Positions 2,474-19,968 of a DNA stretch of 27,315 nucleotides are shown here, piece after piece. The position numbers were made by a program, and so were the translations under genes. The stretch spans positions 1 to 27,315 of IMG/VR virus record IMGVR_UViG_3300008108_000454. One strand, 5' to 3'. Positions within the stretch are counted from its first letter, which is position 1. The number at the start of each line of letters is the position of its first letter. The notes under the pieces are model-generated. The model ran no database searches and was not told the DNA's origin. It was given only the letters and a program-made list of their open reading frames with translations. The DNA is from a virus.

Positions 2474-2925
2474 GCCTGTCCTCCCGCTGCGAATTGCGCC
2501 TGGCCGGGGTGCATGAGGATTTGGTGCGCGTGGTGCGGAACGCGGCGGCGGGCGGCGCGGTGTTTCGGGTGACGGAAGGCTTGCGGACACCTGAGCGCCA
2601 GCGCCAGCTTGTGGGGGAAGGCAAGTCGCAAACCCTGGATAGCCGGCACATCACCGGCCACGCGGTGGACGTGGTGCCGCTGGATAGCGCCGGCAATGTG
2701 TCATGGGCATGGAGCCTGTTTTTCCCGCTTGCTGACGCCTTTCGCGCGGCTTCCATTGCCGAGGGCGTCCCGGTTGTCTGGGGCGGCGCGTGGGGGCAGC
2801 TTATGGGGGATTACGCCACCGCCAAGGCTGGGCAGGCGGCGTATGTGGCGCGGATGCGTGAACAGGGCCGCAAGCCGTTTCTGGATGGGCCGCACTTTGA
2901 ACTATTCCGGGCGCGGTATCCGTAA
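2470..2925 (+). CDS. Endolysin, M15-family L-alanyl-D-glutamate/D-Ala-D-Ala peptidase
   Basis: A 151-residue protein covering one peptidase M15 (VanY-like) domain. The motif SRHITGHAVDVVPL (residues 58-71) supplies the first two zinc ligands, H60 and D67. GPHFEL near the C-terminus supplies H142, and the TEGLRTPERQRQL segment (35-47) is the usual substrate-loop start. These enzymes cleave peptide cross-links of the cell wall as the final step of lysis. No signal peptide is visible, so export depends on the holin encoded directly upstream, with which it overlaps by 4 nt. Length matches phage M15C endolysins. No Rz/Rz1 pair is recognised nearby. Confidence 0.92.
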   Translation: MSLSSRCELRLAGVHEDLVRVVRNAAAGGAVFRVTEGLRTPERQRQLVGEGKSQTLDSRHITGHAVDVVPLDSAGNVSWAWSLFFPLADAFRAASIAEGVPVVWGGAWGQLMGDYATAKAGQAAYVARMREQGRKPFLDGPHFELFRARYP

Positions 2926-3036
2926 GGCGTAAAAAAAGAAGGCCGACCCGTACACCGAAATGCAGAGGGGCCGGTCATGTCGAAGGCATTTTTACTCTAA
3001 TCCGGCCATAAGAGCAAGCCCTAGGCGGTATCCGTA

Positions 3037-3064
3037 ACCATTTTGCTGATGTCGGCAAAATGGT
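3037..3064. terminator. Inverted repeat between convergent operons
   Basis: Arms ACCATTTTGC (3037-3046) and GCAAAATGGT (3055-3064) are a perfect 10-bp inverted repeat with an 8-nt loop. It lies between the endolysin stop (2925, rightward) and the last gene of the leftward operon (stop at 3068). The position suits a bidirectional transcription stop, but neither strand has a U-run after the stem, so it is not a canonical intrinsic terminator. It could instead be a protein-binding site. I see no coding signal in 2926-3067. Confidence 0.4.
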
Positions 3065-6287: not shown

Positions 6288-7111
6288 TGGACAAACTCCT
6301 CCTCCATAGCCCACATGGGCAAATCAACCATGACGATTTCCGGCGCATAGCCGGGCCATATGCCTGTGCGCTCGCACTCGGCGTATTCGTGCAACGCGCG
6401 CATGACTTCGCGCTCGCCCTGCGCTACGGCAGAAGGCGACAATTCATAGATACCGATCAAGAATGGCGGCTCGCGCTCCAGCGCAATAAATATGAAGCGG
6501 TCAGCTTCAAAGCCCCCAGGCGCGGCCTTCACGCCATGCCGGTAAAATGCTTCCTGCCAATGGTGGCGGTAATTGCCGGCGCTTTTGGCAAACTCGGGCG
6601 GGCTGGCATCAACAGTGGTTTTTAGGTCCACAATAATGCGCTGATCACGGCGCAGGCCATCCACACGCCCCCGGCAAAGCAGGCCAGTCGCATCGTTTTG
6701 CCAGAATACAGACGCTTCCGGCTCCAGCCCAGGCGCCAGCAATTCGCGCGCCGTAGGGTGCGCCATTACCGCGTCTCGGATGGTCGCCAGTTCGTCAAAC
6801 TCGGCCACCTTTAGCAGCGTCTTTCCAGACGCTGCCTCTTCCTCTTTCCAGTCCTTCGTGCCGCGCCGCTCAAGCATGGTGCGGGCATAGCGCGCGTCAA
6901 ACTTGTGAGGTTCCAACAAGGCGCTATGGATTAGCCGCCCGGCATTCATAGCTGCGCTGTCTTTGGACGGCACCAGCGCCTTTGCTGGAGCCTCTGCAAA
7001 CCGCTTTAGGACGCTGCACGATACCGCCTTGGTCGCGCGGTAATCGGCGTCGGGCAGATCAAGGTAAATGCCGGCCCGCAGCTCGGCGGCGATTTGGTTA
7101 GCGGCGGTCAT
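6284..7111 (-). CDS. RecE/exonuclease VIII-like PD-(D/E)XK exonuclease
   Basis: A 275-residue protein with the complete active-site layout of the exodeoxyribonuclease VIII-like family. GRLIHSALL (58-66) is the Gly-x-x-x-His element, E132 lies in the EASVFW strand, D151 in GRVDGL, and D162/K164 in IIVDLKTT. QEAFYRHGV (about 186-194) matches the Q-x-x-x-Y motif of RecB-family nucleases. Such enzymes resect double-stranded ends to give 3' overhangs for recombination. The adjacent conserved gene downstream would be the natural partner. Start 7111 overlaps the pentapeptide gene's stop by ATGA. Activity is predicted from intact motifs. Confidence 0.88.
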   Translation of the reverse strand: MTAANQIAAELRAGIYLDLPDADYRATKAVSCSVLKRFAEAPAKALVPSKDSAAMNAGRLIHSALLEPHKFDARYARTMLERRGTKDWKEEEAASGKTLLKVAEFDELATIRDAVMAHPTARELLAPGLEPEASVFWQNDATGLLCRGRVDGLRRDQRIIVDLKTTVDASPPEFAKSAGNYRHHWQEAFYRHGVKAAPGGFEADRFIFIALEREPPFLIGIYELSPSAVAQGEREVMRALHEYAECERTGIWPGYAPEIVMVDLPMWAMEEEFVQ

Positions 7112-7890
7112 GCTGCACCGCCTTGACGCTTAATTGCGGCGTCAAAGAAATCCAGAATGTCCAGGCTTTCATCGCCAAGCGCGGTGCCTTGCCGCGTGTT
7201 TGTCCAATGCTGGCGCGCGGCTTCCATATCCAGAAAGCGGCAACCAGCTTTGATGAAATAGCCTTCCTTGCAATGCCACAGGAAAAACTCATAACTATCT
7301 GACCGCGTGGCGCGGCGCAGAATGCCGATGGCGGTCTTGTCGTTGATCTTGGCGCCGACAAGGTAGGCGCCGCCAAGGTTGGCGCCGACAAGGACGGCGT
7401 CGGCAAGGTTGGCGCCGCCAAGGTCGGCGCCGACAAGGTCGGCGCCGACAAGGTAGGCGCCGCCAAGGTTGGCGTCGCCAAGGTCGGCGCCGCCAAGGTT
7501 GGCGTCGCCGAGGTTGGCGCCGCCAAGGTTGGCGCCGCCAAGGTTGGCGCCGACAAGGACGGCGTCGGCAAGGTTGGCGCCGCCAAGGTCGGCGCCGCCA
7601 AGGACGGCGTCGGCAAGGTTGGCGCCGACAAGGTAGGCGCCGCCAAGGTTGGCGTCGGCAAGGTTGGCGCCGACAAGGTTGGCGTCGGCAAGGACGGCGT
7701 CGGCAAGGTTGGCGCCGCCAAGGTCGGCGCCGCCAAGGTTGGCGCCGACAAGGTTGGCGCCGCTAAGGTTGGCGCCGACAAGGTTGGCGTCGGCAAGGTT
7801 GGCGTCGGCAAGGTTGGCGCGCTTTCCGCCTTTGCTTTCAAGCCATAGCTTATGCTCCGCCAATACGGCGGCGATTTCTTCCTTGGTCAT
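7108..7890 (-). CDS. Pentapeptide-repeat protein
   Basis: A 260-residue protein. Residues 1-24 form a leader helix ([20 protein letters not shown]). Residues 25-179 are 31 uninterrupted A(N/D/V/Y)LxG/D-type pentapeptides, which fold into a right-handed quadrilateral beta-helix. Residues about 180-260 are a globular C-terminal domain ([20 protein letters not shown], then [14 protein letters not shown]). Some pentapeptide proteins mimic DNA and inhibit gyrase, but others have quite different roles; nothing here fixes which applies. GGAGA about 9 nt upstream supports the ATG at 7890, and both ends overlap neighbouring genes by ATGA. The near-identical 15-bp DNA units keep other frames open across the array, creating spurious ORFs. 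Confidence 0.9.
7354..7818 (-). repeat. 15-bp tandem coding repeat (pentapeptide array)
   Basis: About 31 tandem 15-bp units, seen on the plus strand as variants of AAGGTTGGCGCCGCC, encode residues 25-179 of the pentapeptide protein. Only a few positions vary (GTT/GTC/GAC/GTA and the trailing GCCGCC/GCCGAC/GTCGGC). Nucleotide identity between units is much higher than protein function requires, so the array probably expands and contracts by slippage or recombination. Confidence 0.9.
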
Positions 7891-17341: not shown

Positions 17342-17998
17342 ATGATACCCCTATTCGGCAATGCGACCGTCCTTTGGACTGAGCGCGAAATCGAAGAACG
17401 CGACGCGCTGATCCGGCTGATTGCCGTGATTGTGCGGGACGCTTGGCAGGCGCTTAACCCTGCCGTGACTATGCTCCGGGTCGAGACGCCAATCCTTACG
17501 CCTGCCGAGCATCTTGGCGGGCATATCAAGGCCGGGTTTGAGCTTCTCGGCACTGATCGCGGATATTTGCGGCCTGAGACTACGGCTGGCACGTTTGCGG
17601 CGCTTGGCGCCCTGTTTCCCCAGCAAGCGCAGCGCATGAAGCGCCTGCCGGTGTGCCTTTGGCAAGCCGGGAAGTCCTTCCGGGACGAAGCGCACGGCGA
17701 GACCATGCGCGCCACCAAGCTGCGCCTGCGGGAGTTTTGGCAACAGGAGTTCCAGCTATTCTGCCGGCCTGACACCAAGGCGGACTACATCGGCGCGGCG
17801 CTGGATGCCCTGACCGCGCGCTTTGGCGGCGAGGCTGCCCCGGCTGATGACCTGCCGCATTACAGCCGACGGACGGTGGACTGGCACATTCAGGGCCTAG
17901 AGGTGGCGGGATGCTCCGAGCGGACGGATTGGCCCGACGGCATGGTGTTTGAGGTGGCCATCGGGCTTGATAGGCTGATGGCGCTGAAAACCGCTTGA
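17342..17998 (+). CDS. Stand-alone class II aminoacyl-tRNA synthetase core, GlyRS-like
   Basis: A 218-residue protein with all three class II signatures in order. Motif 1-like RVETPILTP spans 46-54. Motif 2 is GKSFRDE (110-116) with LRLREFWQQEFQLF (127-140). Motif 3 is EVAIGLDRLMAL (204-215), including the invariant arginine. YLRPETTAGTF (75-85) closely resembles the LRPETAQGIF element of glycyl-tRNA synthetase, which favours GlyRS over ProRS/ThrRS/HisRS. There is no anticodon-binding domain, and the protein is far shorter than cellular GlyRS. Such cores can activate amino acids for non-tRNA acceptors or act as RNA-binding paralogues. AAGGAG 7 nt upstream supports ATG 17342. The terminase promoter overlaps its last codons. 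Confidence 0.82.
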   Translation: MIPLFGNATVLWTEREIEERDALIRLIAVIVRDAWQALNPAVTMLRVETPILTPAEHLGGHIKAGFELLGTDRGYLRPETTAGTFAALGALFPQQAQRMKRLPVCLWQAGKSFRDEAHGETMRATKLRLREFWQQEFQLFCRPDTKADYIGAALDALTARFGGEAAPADDLPHYSRRTVDWHIQGLEVAGCSERTDWPDGMVFEVAIGLDRLMALKTA

Positions 17999-18023
17999 CA
18001 AGCCTCTGAATTATTTGTAGGGG
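17995..18023 (+). promoter_or_regulatory. Late (terminase-operon) promoter
   Basis: TTGACA (17995-18000), a 17-bp spacer and TAGGGG (18018-18023). The -35 lies across the stop codon of the synthetase-like gene. The GGG-containing -10 is like those of the divergent early promoters. A start near 18030 would place the hammerhead ribozyme in the 5' leader, about 85-160 nt from the 5' end. Confidence 0.6.
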
Positions 18024-18036
18024 GGCTTTATCATTG

Positions 18037-18072
18037 ACTTTCTGCGCCCGGAGCCTAGCAAGGCTGCCGGGG
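18037..18072 (+). repeat. Leader hairpin repeat, copy 1
   Basis: ACTTT-CTG-CGCCCGGAGCC (18037-18055), then UAGCAA, GGCU, a bulged G and CCGGGG. CCCGG (18047-18051) pairs with CCGGG (18067-18071) and AGCC (18052-18055) with GGCU (18062-18065), giving a 9-bp stem with a 6-nt loop. A second copy lies 179 bp downstream, on the other side of the ribozyme. Confidence 0.75.
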
Positions 18073-18116
18073 ATAGCCGTGGGTTCACCAGGTGGGTGAA
18101 GCAAGTGAACATCTAG

Positions 18117-18190
18117 CCCGGCATTTTGCGCGGCTGACGAGCCCGAAAGGGCGAAACGCTTACGCGTCCCGCGGAGTCGCCCCAGCCGGG
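18117..18190 (+). ncRNA. Type I hammerhead self-cleaving ribozyme
   Basis: Every conserved hammerhead core position is present. Stem I 5' strand is CGCGG (18129-18133), then CUGACGA (18134-18140). Stem II is GCCC-GAAA-GGGC (18141-18152) with the standard G-C closing pair, then GAA (18153-18155). Stem III is ACGC-UUAC-GCGU (18156-18167), with the required A-U pair next to the core. C18168 is the cleavage nucleotide of a GUC triplet, and stem I 3' strand is CCGCG (18169-18173). Stem I extends past an internal loop by CCCGGC (18117-18122) with GCCGGG (18185-18190). Stems II and III are closed and stem I is open, so this is type I. Cleavage is predicted between 18168 and 18169, leaving 2',3'-cyclic phosphate and 5'-OH ends. 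Self-cleavage follows from the family consensus and has not been shown here. Confidence 0.93.
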
Positions 18191-18215
18191 GAATAACTGG
18201 CGACCTAGGCCCACC

Positions 18216-18250
18216 ACTTTAACCGCCCGGAGCCCCACAAGGCCCGGGGC
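18216..18250 (+). repeat. Leader hairpin repeat, copy 2
   Basis: ACTTT-AAC-CGCCCGGAGCC (18216-18234), then CCACAAGG and CCCGGGGC. The 11-bp CGCCCGGAGCC and the ACTTT at the same spacing are identical to copy 1, and CCCGG/CCGGG pairing is kept while the loop differs. It lies 3' of the ribozyme, on the downstream cleavage product. Confidence 0.7.
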
Positions 18251-18271
18251 ATCGTCTCACCTGCCAAGCGC

Positions 18272-18314
18272 AGGAGGAGCATTCGAAGCCGCTCCGGTTA
18301 GCCTGAGCGGCTTC
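18272..18314 (+). promoter_or_regulatory. Orphan strong Shine-Dalgarno followed by stable hairpin
   Basis: AGGAGGAG (18272-18279) is an excellent ribosome-binding sequence but no ATG, GTG or TTG follows at a normal distance; the nearest in-frame candidate is an ATT at 18281 opening a 6-codon frame that ends at TAG 18299. A perfect 9-bp stem (GAAGCCGCT 18285-18293, AGCGGCTTC 18306-18314) follows and is trailed by a weak U-run (CAUUUUC). This could be an attenuator, a terminator or a ribosome-standby site ahead of the terminase operon. Confidence 0.45.
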
Positions 18315-18336
18315 AGCATTTTCATGGAGAGACACG

Positions 18337-18372
18337 ATGGGCACGAAGCGCAAGGGCGGCAAGAAATACTAA
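18337..18372 (+). CDS. 11-residue basic leader peptide MGTKRKGGKKY
   Basis: ATG 18337 has GGAGAG (18326-18331) about 5 nt upstream, and the frame ends in TAA at 18370-18372, overlapping the next ATG as TAATG. The product has six basic residues in eleven. The good ribosome-binding site and exact coupling suggest it is translated, probably to deliver ribosomes to the following gene. Similar Lys/Gly-rich mini-ORFs before terminase genes are something I recall from other phages but cannot verify here. Confidence 0.6.
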   Translation: MGTKRKGGKKY

Positions 18373-18737
18373 TGGGCGGTCGCACCAGCGCGACCCGCAA
18401 AGGCAACGGTCCCGGCTACGGCGGGCCTGCCAAGGGCGCCAGACGTGGGAACGGGCGCGAGGCCTATACTGCCGACACGCAGCCATCCCCGGACGCCAAG
18501 CGCGCGGGTCATGAGGTCGCGGCAGAGATACGGGCGAAGATTGCGGCTCGCAAGGATGAAATTCTCGAAGCGCAACTGGCGCGGGCGACGGATGAGCACA
18601 ATCCTTCCGGCCATGCGGCGGCGGTGGACTTGCTGAACCGCATCATGCCGCCAGAGAGCAAACAGACTGTTTCCGGCGATGCTGACGCGCCGCTGGCCTT
18701 CACCATCGTTACCGGAGTGCCCCGCGCGGAGGATTAA
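18372..18737 (+). CDS. terS: Putative small terminase subunit
   Basis: A 121-residue protein from ATG 18372, coupled to the leader peptide; the frame reaches back to 18324 but that start ignores the coupling. The first ~35 residues are Gly/Arg-rich and basic (TSATRKGNGPGYGGPAKGAR). The middle is helical (HEVAAEIRAKIAARKDEILE, then AQLARATDEHNPSGHAAAVD), then a short beta tail (PLAFTIVTG). Small terminases bind packaging sites and form rings via helices like these. The main reason for the call is position directly before the large terminase; I recognise no diagnostic motif. The DNA before it is therefore also where a cos or pac site would be expected. Confidence 0.6.
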   Translation: MGGRTSATRKGNGPGYGGPAKGARRGNGREAYTADTQPSPDAKRAGHEVAAEIRAKIAARKDEILEAQLARATDEHNPSGHAAAVDLLNRIMPPESKQTVSGDADAPLAFTIVTGVPRAED

Positions 18738-18739
18738 CC

Positions 18740-19219
18740 ATGTCGCGCGTGATTGACCTTGGCTATCGGGCGCGGGAGCAATTCGCGCCATTTCATCGGC
18801 GCCGGGAACGCTGGGCCTGCCTTGTGGCGCATCGGCGCGCGGGCAAGACGGTGGCCTGTGTGGCAGACTTGGTTGACGCGGCATTGCGCTGCACCAAGCC
18901 TAACCCGCGCTTCGCCTATGTGGCGCCGTTATATGTCCAGGCAAAGGACATCGCTTGGGGCTATGTGAAGCAATTCACGCGGGCTATACCGGGAGCGGCT
19001 TGGCACGAAAGCGAGTTGCGGTGCGACCTGCCGAACGGGGCGCGCATTCGGCTTTACGGGGCCGAAAACTACGAACGGTTACGCGGCCTGTATTTTGATG
19101 GCGTGGTGCTGGATGAATATGCGGACATGCCCCCGGCCATCTTGCCGGAGGTGATCCGCCCTGCGCTTGCTGATCGGGAAGGCTGGGCGACGTTGAATTG
19201 GAAGCCGCGCGGGCGGTAA
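18740..19219 (+). CDS. terL: Large terminase, N-terminal ATPase part (split gene)
   Basis: 159 residues carry the packaging-motor ATPase: YRAREQFAPFHRRRERWACL, Walker A-like AHRRAGKT (30-37), the LYGAENYERLRGLYFDGVVL segment and Walker B VVLDEYADM (about 120-128). GCGGAGGA about 8 nt upstream supports ATG 18740. After ADREGWAT the expected coupling motif (FIGTPKGRN-type) is absent; the frame instead reads LNWKPRGR and stops. That tail arises by reading the codons for LEAARAV of the downstream half in a shifted frame. So some residues (about 40 by memory of intact relatives) appear deleted together with a frameshift. The stop overlaps the ATG of the second half (TAATG). Confidence 0.85.
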   Translation: MSRVIDLGYRAREQFAPFHRRRERWACLVAHRRAGKTVACVADLVDAALRCTKPNPRFAYVAPLYVQAKDIAWGYVKQFTRAIPGAAWHESELRCDLPNGARIRLYGAENYERLRGLYFDGVVLDEYADMPPAILPEVIRPALADREGWATLNWKPRGR

Positions 19220-19968
19220 TGACGCCCGAGCAATATGCCCAGGAATGGGAATGCAGCTTCGACGCGGCGATTATCGGCGCGTATTACGGGCGAGAGATTG
19301 CCCAGGCTGAGGAAGCCGGGCGTATCTGTCATGTGCCGGCTGATCCGGCCTTGAAGGTGCATACGGCTTGGGATTTGGGCGTCGGTGACAGCACGGCCAT
19401 ATGGTTCTTCCAGGTGGCGGCTAACCAGATCCGGGTGATTGATCACTACGAGGCGAACGGCCACGGCCTGCCGCATTACGCGGCGGTTCTGGCTGCCAAG
19501 GGCTACCAATACGGGCACGATTACCTGCCGCATGATGCCAAGGCGCGGGACCTGGGGACGGGCCGGACGCGGATCGAGACTTTCCGGGAATTGACCGGGC
19601 GAGTGCCCCGCGTGTTGCGCGCCGGCAAGGTCATGGATGGGATCAACGCGGCGCGCGTGACCATGGCGCGGTGCTGGTTTGATGAAAGCAAGTGCCGCGA
19701 GGGCTTGGAGGCGCTGCGCCAATACCGGGCCGACTATGACGAGAAAAAGCGCGTGTTTCGGGATGAACCGCGCCACGATTGGACCAGTCACACGGCGGAC
19801 GCCTTTCGCTACATGGCAATGGCATGGCGTGAATTGCGGCCTGAAAAACCGCCCGAGCAACCGCGCTTTGCTATCCAGGCAGCGCCGGGCGGAATGCAGA
19901 TCAACCTTGGTGAATTGGCGCGGCGGCACTTGCAGCGGCGCGCGGCCATGAGAGGGGATTACGAATGA
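19219..19968 (+). CDS. terL: Large terminase, C-terminal nuclease part (split gene)
   Basis: 249 residues from ATG 19219; the open frame begins a little earlier (TTG 19198, reading MEAARAV) and shows where the original protein continued. MTPEQYAQEWECSFDAAIIG and AYYGREI are the usual linker to the RNase H-fold nuclease. TAWDLGVGDSTAIWFFQ (49-65, D52) holds the first acidic active-site residue, and HDWTSHTADAFRYMAMAW the last. It is in the -1 frame relative to the ATPase part. Either the two parts work as separate chains, or the gene is defective or misassembled. The nuclease motifs look intact. Confidence 0.85.
   Translation: MTPEQYAQEWECSFDAAIIGAYYGREIAQAEEAGRICHVPADPALKVHTAWDLGVGDSTAIWFFQVAANQIRVIDHYEANGHGLPHYAAVLAAKGYQYGHDYLPHDAKARDLGTGRTRIETFRELTGRVPRVLRAGKVMDGINAARVTMARCWFDESKCREGLEALRQYRADYDEKKRVFRDEPRHDWTSHTADAFRYMAMAWRELRPEKPPEQPRFAIQAAPGGMQINLGELARRHLQRRAAMRGDYE

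Follow-up and report, generated by a model that had tools for sequence, protein, structure and literature searches.

The window, the 27,315-nt stretch of viral DNA analysed here, encodes a likely small terminase (terS). The preceding leader contains a promoter-like block, an RNA with an embedded hammerhead ribozyme between two copies of a repeat (hairpin A), a two-hairpin module (module C), and a short open reading frame (ORF) (Table 1). All relatives keep the promoter-like block, whether they carry the RNA or not (11 loci). A sequence-only reading of this DNA had placed a type I hammerhead in the leader upstream of terS, with hairpin repeats on both sides. The hammerhead does lie between the conserved promoter-like block and terS, and the repeats (18037-18064 and 18216-18243) are 79% identical. 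A 218-aa ORF at 17342-17998 (+ strand) adjoins the RNA leader and is optional in the phage group; its resemblance to class II glycyl-tRNA synthetase is confined to the catalytic core. The large terminase (terL) is present as two overlapping ORFs (18740-19968, + strand); record L002, otherwise identical to the window, encodes an intact 447-aa large terminase, and the window is short by about 114 bp. A long pentapeptide-repeat-like protein with an overlapping open repeat frame is encoded at 7108-7890 (- strand).

Table 1. Features of the terS leader, with positions in the window
Feature	Position	Strand	Details
Promoter-like block	17994-18019	+	TTGACA at 17995-18000, then AATTATTTGTA; 11 loci compared by eye, consensus only
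Repeat/hairpin A, first copy	18037-18073	+	GCCCGGAGCC..AAGGCTGCCGGG
Whole double-pseudoknot phage RNA	18077-18215	+	~140 nt; normal gene order, hammerhead embedded
Helix a, 5' strand	18083-18088	+	GUUCAC; partner 18105-18110
Helix b, 5' strand	18091-18096	+	GGUGGG; in helix a loop; pseudoknot partner 18210-18215
Helix a, 3' strand	18105-18110	+	GUGAAC; partner 18083-18088
Helix c, 5' strand	18117-18122	+	CCCGGC; partner 18185-18190
Type I hammerhead ribozyme	18129-18173	+	Predicted cleavage between 18168 and 18169
Hammerhead stem I	18129-18133/18169-18173		5 bp; direct sequence reading
Hammerhead core	18134-18140		CUGACGA; direct sequence reading
Hammerhead stem II	18141-18152		GCCC-GAAA-GGGC, 4 bp; direct sequence reading
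Hammerhead GAA	18153-18155		Direct sequence reading
Hammerhead stem III	18156-18167		ACGC-UUAC-GCGU, 4 bp; direct sequence reading
Hammerhead C17 (cleavage base)	18168		Direct sequence reading
NCGYGGA element	18169-18175	+	Stem I 3' strand; predicted new 5'-OH end
Helix e, 5' strand	18176-18181	+	GUCGCC; partner 18199-18204
Helix c, 3' strand	18185-18190	+	GCCGGG; in helix e loop (second pseudoknot); partner 18117-18122
Near-invariant single strand	18191-18198	+	GAAUAACU; between c' and e'
Helix e, 3' strand	18199-18204	+	GGCGAC; partner 18176-18181
Helix b, 3' strand	18210-18215	+	CCCACC; partner 18091-18096
Repeat/hairpin A, second copy	18216-18249	+	
Module C	18250-18315	+	Two hairpins (GTCTCACCTGCC..GCAGGAGGAGCATTCGA); another optional leader insert besides the hammerhead module
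11-codon ORF	18337-18372	+	MGTKRKGGKKY; overlaps terS start; kept in relatives compared
Likely small terminase (terS)	18372-18737	+	Named by position only; no family match

The hammerhead contains the type I core (C3 U4 G5 A6 N7 G8 A9, G12 A13 A14, A15.1-U16.1, H17) and three stems, of which II and III are closed by loops and stem I is the entry, as in type I. Every element listed in the sequence-only reading is present, and its cleavage position agrees with the cut predicted here. With both strands scanned, a strict hammerhead descriptor hit the 27-kb window once and none of 300 dinucleotide shuffles. The whole window had no match in Rfam at gathering threshold. A covariance search, which the earlier reading had proposed, did match at relaxed threshold: RF02275 (Hammerhead_HH9) was identified with 26.5 bits and E=1.6e-4 (421 nt searched), below the gathering score of 52 for RF02275 membership, a database cut-off specific to one hammerhead subfamily and no structural criterion of hammerheads. 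The minimum free energy (MFE) structure of the isolated 45-nt hammerhead is the hammerhead fold (-17.7 kcal/mol). With longer window context, a pseudoknot-free nearest-neighbour model favours other folds, and pseudoknot-free folding of the region was dropped as evidence for the hammerhead. Judged by its sequence, this is a real hammerhead, and its cleavage is predicted.

The hammerhead is not a self-contained leader ribozyme spanning 18117-18190, as first read, and is instead embedded in a separate conserved RNA of about 18077-18215. The common plan across 51 distinct copies is CGUGG - a - b - a' - AUCUGG - c - (linker or hammerhead) - CGYGGA - e - CCA - c' - GAAUAACU - e' - CUAG - b', where letters denote helix strands. 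Helix b encloses a' and the pseudoknot formed by c and e, so the two pseudoknots are interlocked. The motifs CGYGGA, GAAUAACU and AUCUGG are near-invariant single-stranded motifs around the ribozyme, and CGYGGA is retained even in copies without a hammerhead. Pairing of 18117-18122 with 18185-18190, previously described as a second segment of stem I, was confirmed as pairing and reassigned to helix c of the larger RNA, because these strands also pair in copies without a hammerhead and in permuted copies.

Copies were collected by pattern searches. With a pattern for the segment 3' of the hammerhead, the same sequence was located on hammerhead-free contigs, first L047 and then L056 and L057; the latter two carry the scaffold between tRNA genes of large phages. 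A broader pattern matched 45 viral loci, a few of them by chance, and a pattern for the 5' half matched 31 loci. Six of seven matches on genome contigs (L049-L051, L053-L055) were judged from sequence to be chance and were discarded. Helix statistics were computed on 50 of the 51 distinct copies (42 in normal and 8 in permuted order), leaving out L063, which the parse had misassigned.

At most positions of helices a, b, and e, two to four Watson-Crick pair types occur. Over 30 distinct pairs, helix a is 98.9% paired, with up to 4 pair types per position. The best b/b' pairing reaches at least 6 bp in 49 of 49 matched copies, compared with 20% of mismatched combinations. The 40-nt 3' half, which holds helix e, is 99.5% paired versus 71.6% when shuffled, and its covariation score is 0.732 versus 0.173 when shuffled and at most 0.13 when slid. 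Since the parse itself seeks pairing, a less biased check was anchored only on flanking motifs. Helix e then formed 5 or 6 of 6 pairs in all 29 distinct combinations, and helix c formed 6 of 6 in all 20 combinations that have its motif. Helix c seldom varies; compensated versions are CCCAGC/GCUGGG among the family copies, CCCGCC/GGCGGG in Pectobacterium phage Pappous, and CCCUGC/GCAGGG on Acinetobacter plasmids. The scaffold looks like an RNA family with very strong compensatory evidence.

A hammerhead occupies the loop between helices c and e in 45 of the 51 copies; 40 of the 45 are distinct, and 44 have a canonical core. Stems I-III covary across the 40 distinct hammerheads, all of which have GAA and the closing A-U pair. 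The core is CUGA[U/C/A]GA in 39 of the 40, and the cleavage base is C, A or U, never G. The one exception is mycobacteriophage Gaia (UUGAUAA). This core is the U3/A8 covariant, which occurs in natural hammerheads and is cited as active in vitro (PMC3088659). The first pair of stem I is G-C in 21, C-G in 19, and A-U in 5 of the 45 hammerheads, and stem II is frequently only 2-4 bp. Folded in isolation, 17 of the 40 have the hammerhead as their MFE structure. The predicted cut always lies 7 nt 5' of helix e. The search for the 45 was anchored at the expected place; a separate descriptor that was free to move likewise gave only 7 nt. No hammerhead was recognisable in six of the 51 copies (L047, L056, L057, L059, L060, and L114). 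In an Acinetobacter plasmid copy, A replaces G12, so that GAA reads AAA; this copy is probably an inactive natural variant. Cutting is therefore not needed everywhere.

At least eight copies (enterobacterial, Bordetella, and some other elements) have a circularly permuted gene order: hammerhead - e - c' - e' - b' - hairpin - a - b - a' - c. The hammerhead keeps the same scaffold position, before helix e, and the same cut would here generate the 5' end of the RNA. The cut and the permutation point coincide, and no other observation hints as strongly that it matters for the chain to be open there. The leader 5' of the hammerhead in enterobacterial permuted copies pairs with the trailer 3' of c (AAGAGCACUG/CAGUGCUCUU), and the MFE structure of the whole RNA includes the hammerhead. 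In Pectobacterium phage Pappous the RNA runs directly into a tRNA-Met, and its 3' end could accordingly be set by tRNA processing. The permuted copies on Acinetobacter plasmids L126 and L127, which carry the G12 to A change, lie directly 3' of a tRNA-Asn-like sequence. Permuted tmRNA also has a permuted gene order and a chain opened at new ends. Its sequence is unrelated, no tRNA-like domain or tag reading frame was recognised in the RNA described here, and opening here is by a predicted hammerhead cut whereas tmRNA is opened by protein nucleases.

Carriers of the family include Arthrobacter phages Karkharias and Constance, Mycobacterium phages Gaia and phiGD24-3, Enterobacter phage SDFMU_EhYP, Pectobacterium phages Pappous and Taid, Dickeya phage Setonix, Acinetobacter mobilizable plasmids, and one Bordetella trematum genome. 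The phages infect Proteobacteria and Actinobacteria. Two of them, Arthrobacter phage Karkharias and the Mycobacterium smegmatis phage Gaia with its variant core, have laboratory hosts. The RNA was found in 15 of 5,426 E. coli genomes; an earlier tally of 147 E. coli genomes was rejected as mostly matches to the upstream flank (two, L097 and L098, were read and lack the RNA). Among sampled genomes (399 Pseudomonadota, 397 Actinomycetota, and 300 Bacillota), the known Bordetella copy was the only one recovered, under stricter filters that miss weak matches. Each record has one copy except L045, which has two. The RNA lies beside terminase and portal genes, beside lysis genes or in tRNA arrays, and in some phages beside other genes. 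The two E. coli copies examined are in lambdoid prophages, between antiterminator Q and holin. In some phages the RNA precedes terS/terL or lies between terL and the portal gene, and one setting is between capsid and tail genes. Within tRNA clusters, a tRNA lies directly 5' or 3' of the RNA. A separate 77-nt noncoding stretch (upstream flank of L069; about 1200-1310 of L125) is kept in most of 171 phage records, from phages of Klebsiella, Escherichia, Salmonella and others. In some phages the hammerhead RNA lies inside the hairpin of this stretch; in phage IME11 the hairpin holds a different insert of ~50 nt.

Relatives of the window phage differ in their leaders. A large-terminase search returned 40 loci; the hammerhead is confined to records from the same phage or its sisters. 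In seven close relatives (L003-L007, L010, and L013) the order is promoter-like block, one hairpin A, 11-codon ORF, terS. In RNA-free relatives the single hairpin A is terminator-like and is followed by a T-run. With the hammerhead module designated B, the leader is A-B-A-C in the window, A-B-A in L011, A-C-A in L009, and A-C-A-B-A in L008; module C thus shifts its place relative to B among the relatives. Among viral contigs, module C was found only in this lineage and two relatives. Module B is inserted with extra copies of A in some relatives only and is therefore accessory in the phage group. L045 has two clearly diverged B units 172 bp apart and a further segment of unrecognised nature. 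This extra segment of ~150 nt lies between hairpin A and the first unit (about 2860-3040, - strand) and has no Rfam match.

The RNA is absent from eight of the close relatives sampled, all of which have this terS/terL locus. A packaging RNA like the pRNA of phi29, which needs to be present in every group member, was rejected on this account. A role tied to the packaging operon, in whose leader the sequence-only reading placed the hammerhead, is not supported either, given these eight relatives and the Q-holin, tRNA-cluster, and capsid-tail settings.

The ribozyme itself resembles known bacterial and phage type I hammerheads (RF00163, RF02275; Perreault et al. 2011, PMC3088659) in core, three stems, topology, and phage setting; a stem II of down to 2 bp and U3/A8 core covariation were reported there. 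Unlike those hammerheads, the ribozyme here forms part of a conserved double-pseudoknot RNA, and this RNA also exists without it. PaP3 and Bcep176, the phage hammerheads tested in PMC3088659, lack the scaffold and were not included in the family. Theta ribozymes, which have an HDV-like fold and cut beside tRNAs in phages of Bacteroidota and Bacillota (PMC10879173), are the functionally nearest idea. Both are small self-cleaving ribozymes of tailed phages, often adjacent to tRNAs, with a proposed role in RNA processing. The fold is different: here it is a hammerhead, the predicted cut is inside a separate RNA, and the phages are those of Proteobacteria and Actinobacteria. A theta or HDV-like identity was rejected for the scaffold, which has no HDV-like Rfam match and has the order a-b-a'-(c-e-c'-e')-b' with no P3 between b and a'. 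A ToxI-like identity has no Rfam support. Outside the hammerhead, the scaffold has no covariance-model match in Rfam 15. No description of it was found in the openly licensed literature, a search result that is not proof of novelty. The scaffold is apparently an undescribed RNA family.

We regard this RNA, somewhat more probably than otherwise, as an accessory late noncoding RNA of two interlocked pseudoknots whose own hammerhead opens the chain at one fixed point. The RNA would be co-transcribed with the late mRNA or with tRNAs. The hammerhead in the loop between helices c and e would then cut exactly 7 nt 5' of helix e. Release of a short 5' RNA from the late mRNA, as proposed earlier, would not necessarily follow, since helices b and c, which add up to about 12-13 bp, span the cut. 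In the normal gene order, cleavage would thus yield a nicked two-piece RNA with the pieces joined by these helices, and in the permuted order the same cut would provide the mature 5' end. The hammerhead would act as a built-in processing enzyme. The processed RNA would be the active form and would probably act in trans: dispensability, single copy, and the company of tRNAs suggest a trans-acting accessory RNA.

The main rival is a cis role on the late mRNA, in which the pseudoknot RNA and hammerhead form a leader that controls the stability or elongation of the attached message. The structured 5'-OH end left by cleavage could withstand 5'-monophosphate-dependent decay, or the RNA could be an antitermination element upstream of a terminator-like hairpin. 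Its position heading late operons is also compatible with this: in the window it sits between the promoter-like block and the terminator-like hairpin upstream of terS, and the Q-holin, terS/terL, and terL-portal settings are similar in kind. However, the RNA also occurs inside tRNA clusters and between capsid and tail genes, its cut falls in the middle of the RNA and not at the upstream edge, and relatives that lack it still have this promoter, hairpin, and terS. We consider the cis role unlikely.

Still less likely, in our estimate, is a selfish mobile RNA, in which the hammerhead unit between the hairpin repeats is an RNA- or recombination-borne parasite and the prokaryotic counterpart of a retrozyme. 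Retrozymes and other circular hammerhead RNAs (reviewed in PMC7761336) also have type I hammerheads in repeated noncoding units, and the L045 pair is tandem. The similar flanking repeats, the empty sites in relatives, the varied genomic settings, and the permuted forms could likewise reflect mobility. A retrozyme needs many dispersed or tandem copies, whereas each phage here carries a single copy in all matching records but one, and the L045 copies are clearly diverged. Unlike retrozymes, the RNA has no retroelement features and resides in phage genomes, with compensatory selection on scaffold helices that a passenger would not need. No recurrent neighbouring mobility gene was seen, and the flanking repeat is limited to this phage group.

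We give little credence to a natural allosteric hammerhead, in which the pseudoknot part binds a ligand or protein that switches cleavage. The near-invariant motifs around the ribozyme are aptamer-like and the often very short stem II would fit such a switch, but the scaffold also exists without a hammerhead, and no recurrent downstream gene class was observed, unlike for usual riboswitches. A chance or decayed hammerhead-like sequence, to which the score under the Rfam gathering score and the competing folds might point, is very improbable given the empty shuffles, the canonical core in 39 of 40 distinct hammerheads from very divergent phages, and the match of the remaining Gaia core to a natural variant.

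The trans-acting accessory RNA is thus the reading we favour. It may represent a new class of phage noncoding RNA, to which we assign an even chance: an accessory RNA of unrelated tailed phages of two phyla and of some plasmids, with two interlocked pseudoknots, a built-in hammerhead that would open the chain at one fixed point, normal or permuted gene order, and a probable trans action against the host or its defences. What hammerheads do in bacteria and phages is described as an open question (PMC6155905). With dozens of hammerheads at one precise address in one conserved RNA, the role of phage hammerheads becomes a testable question.
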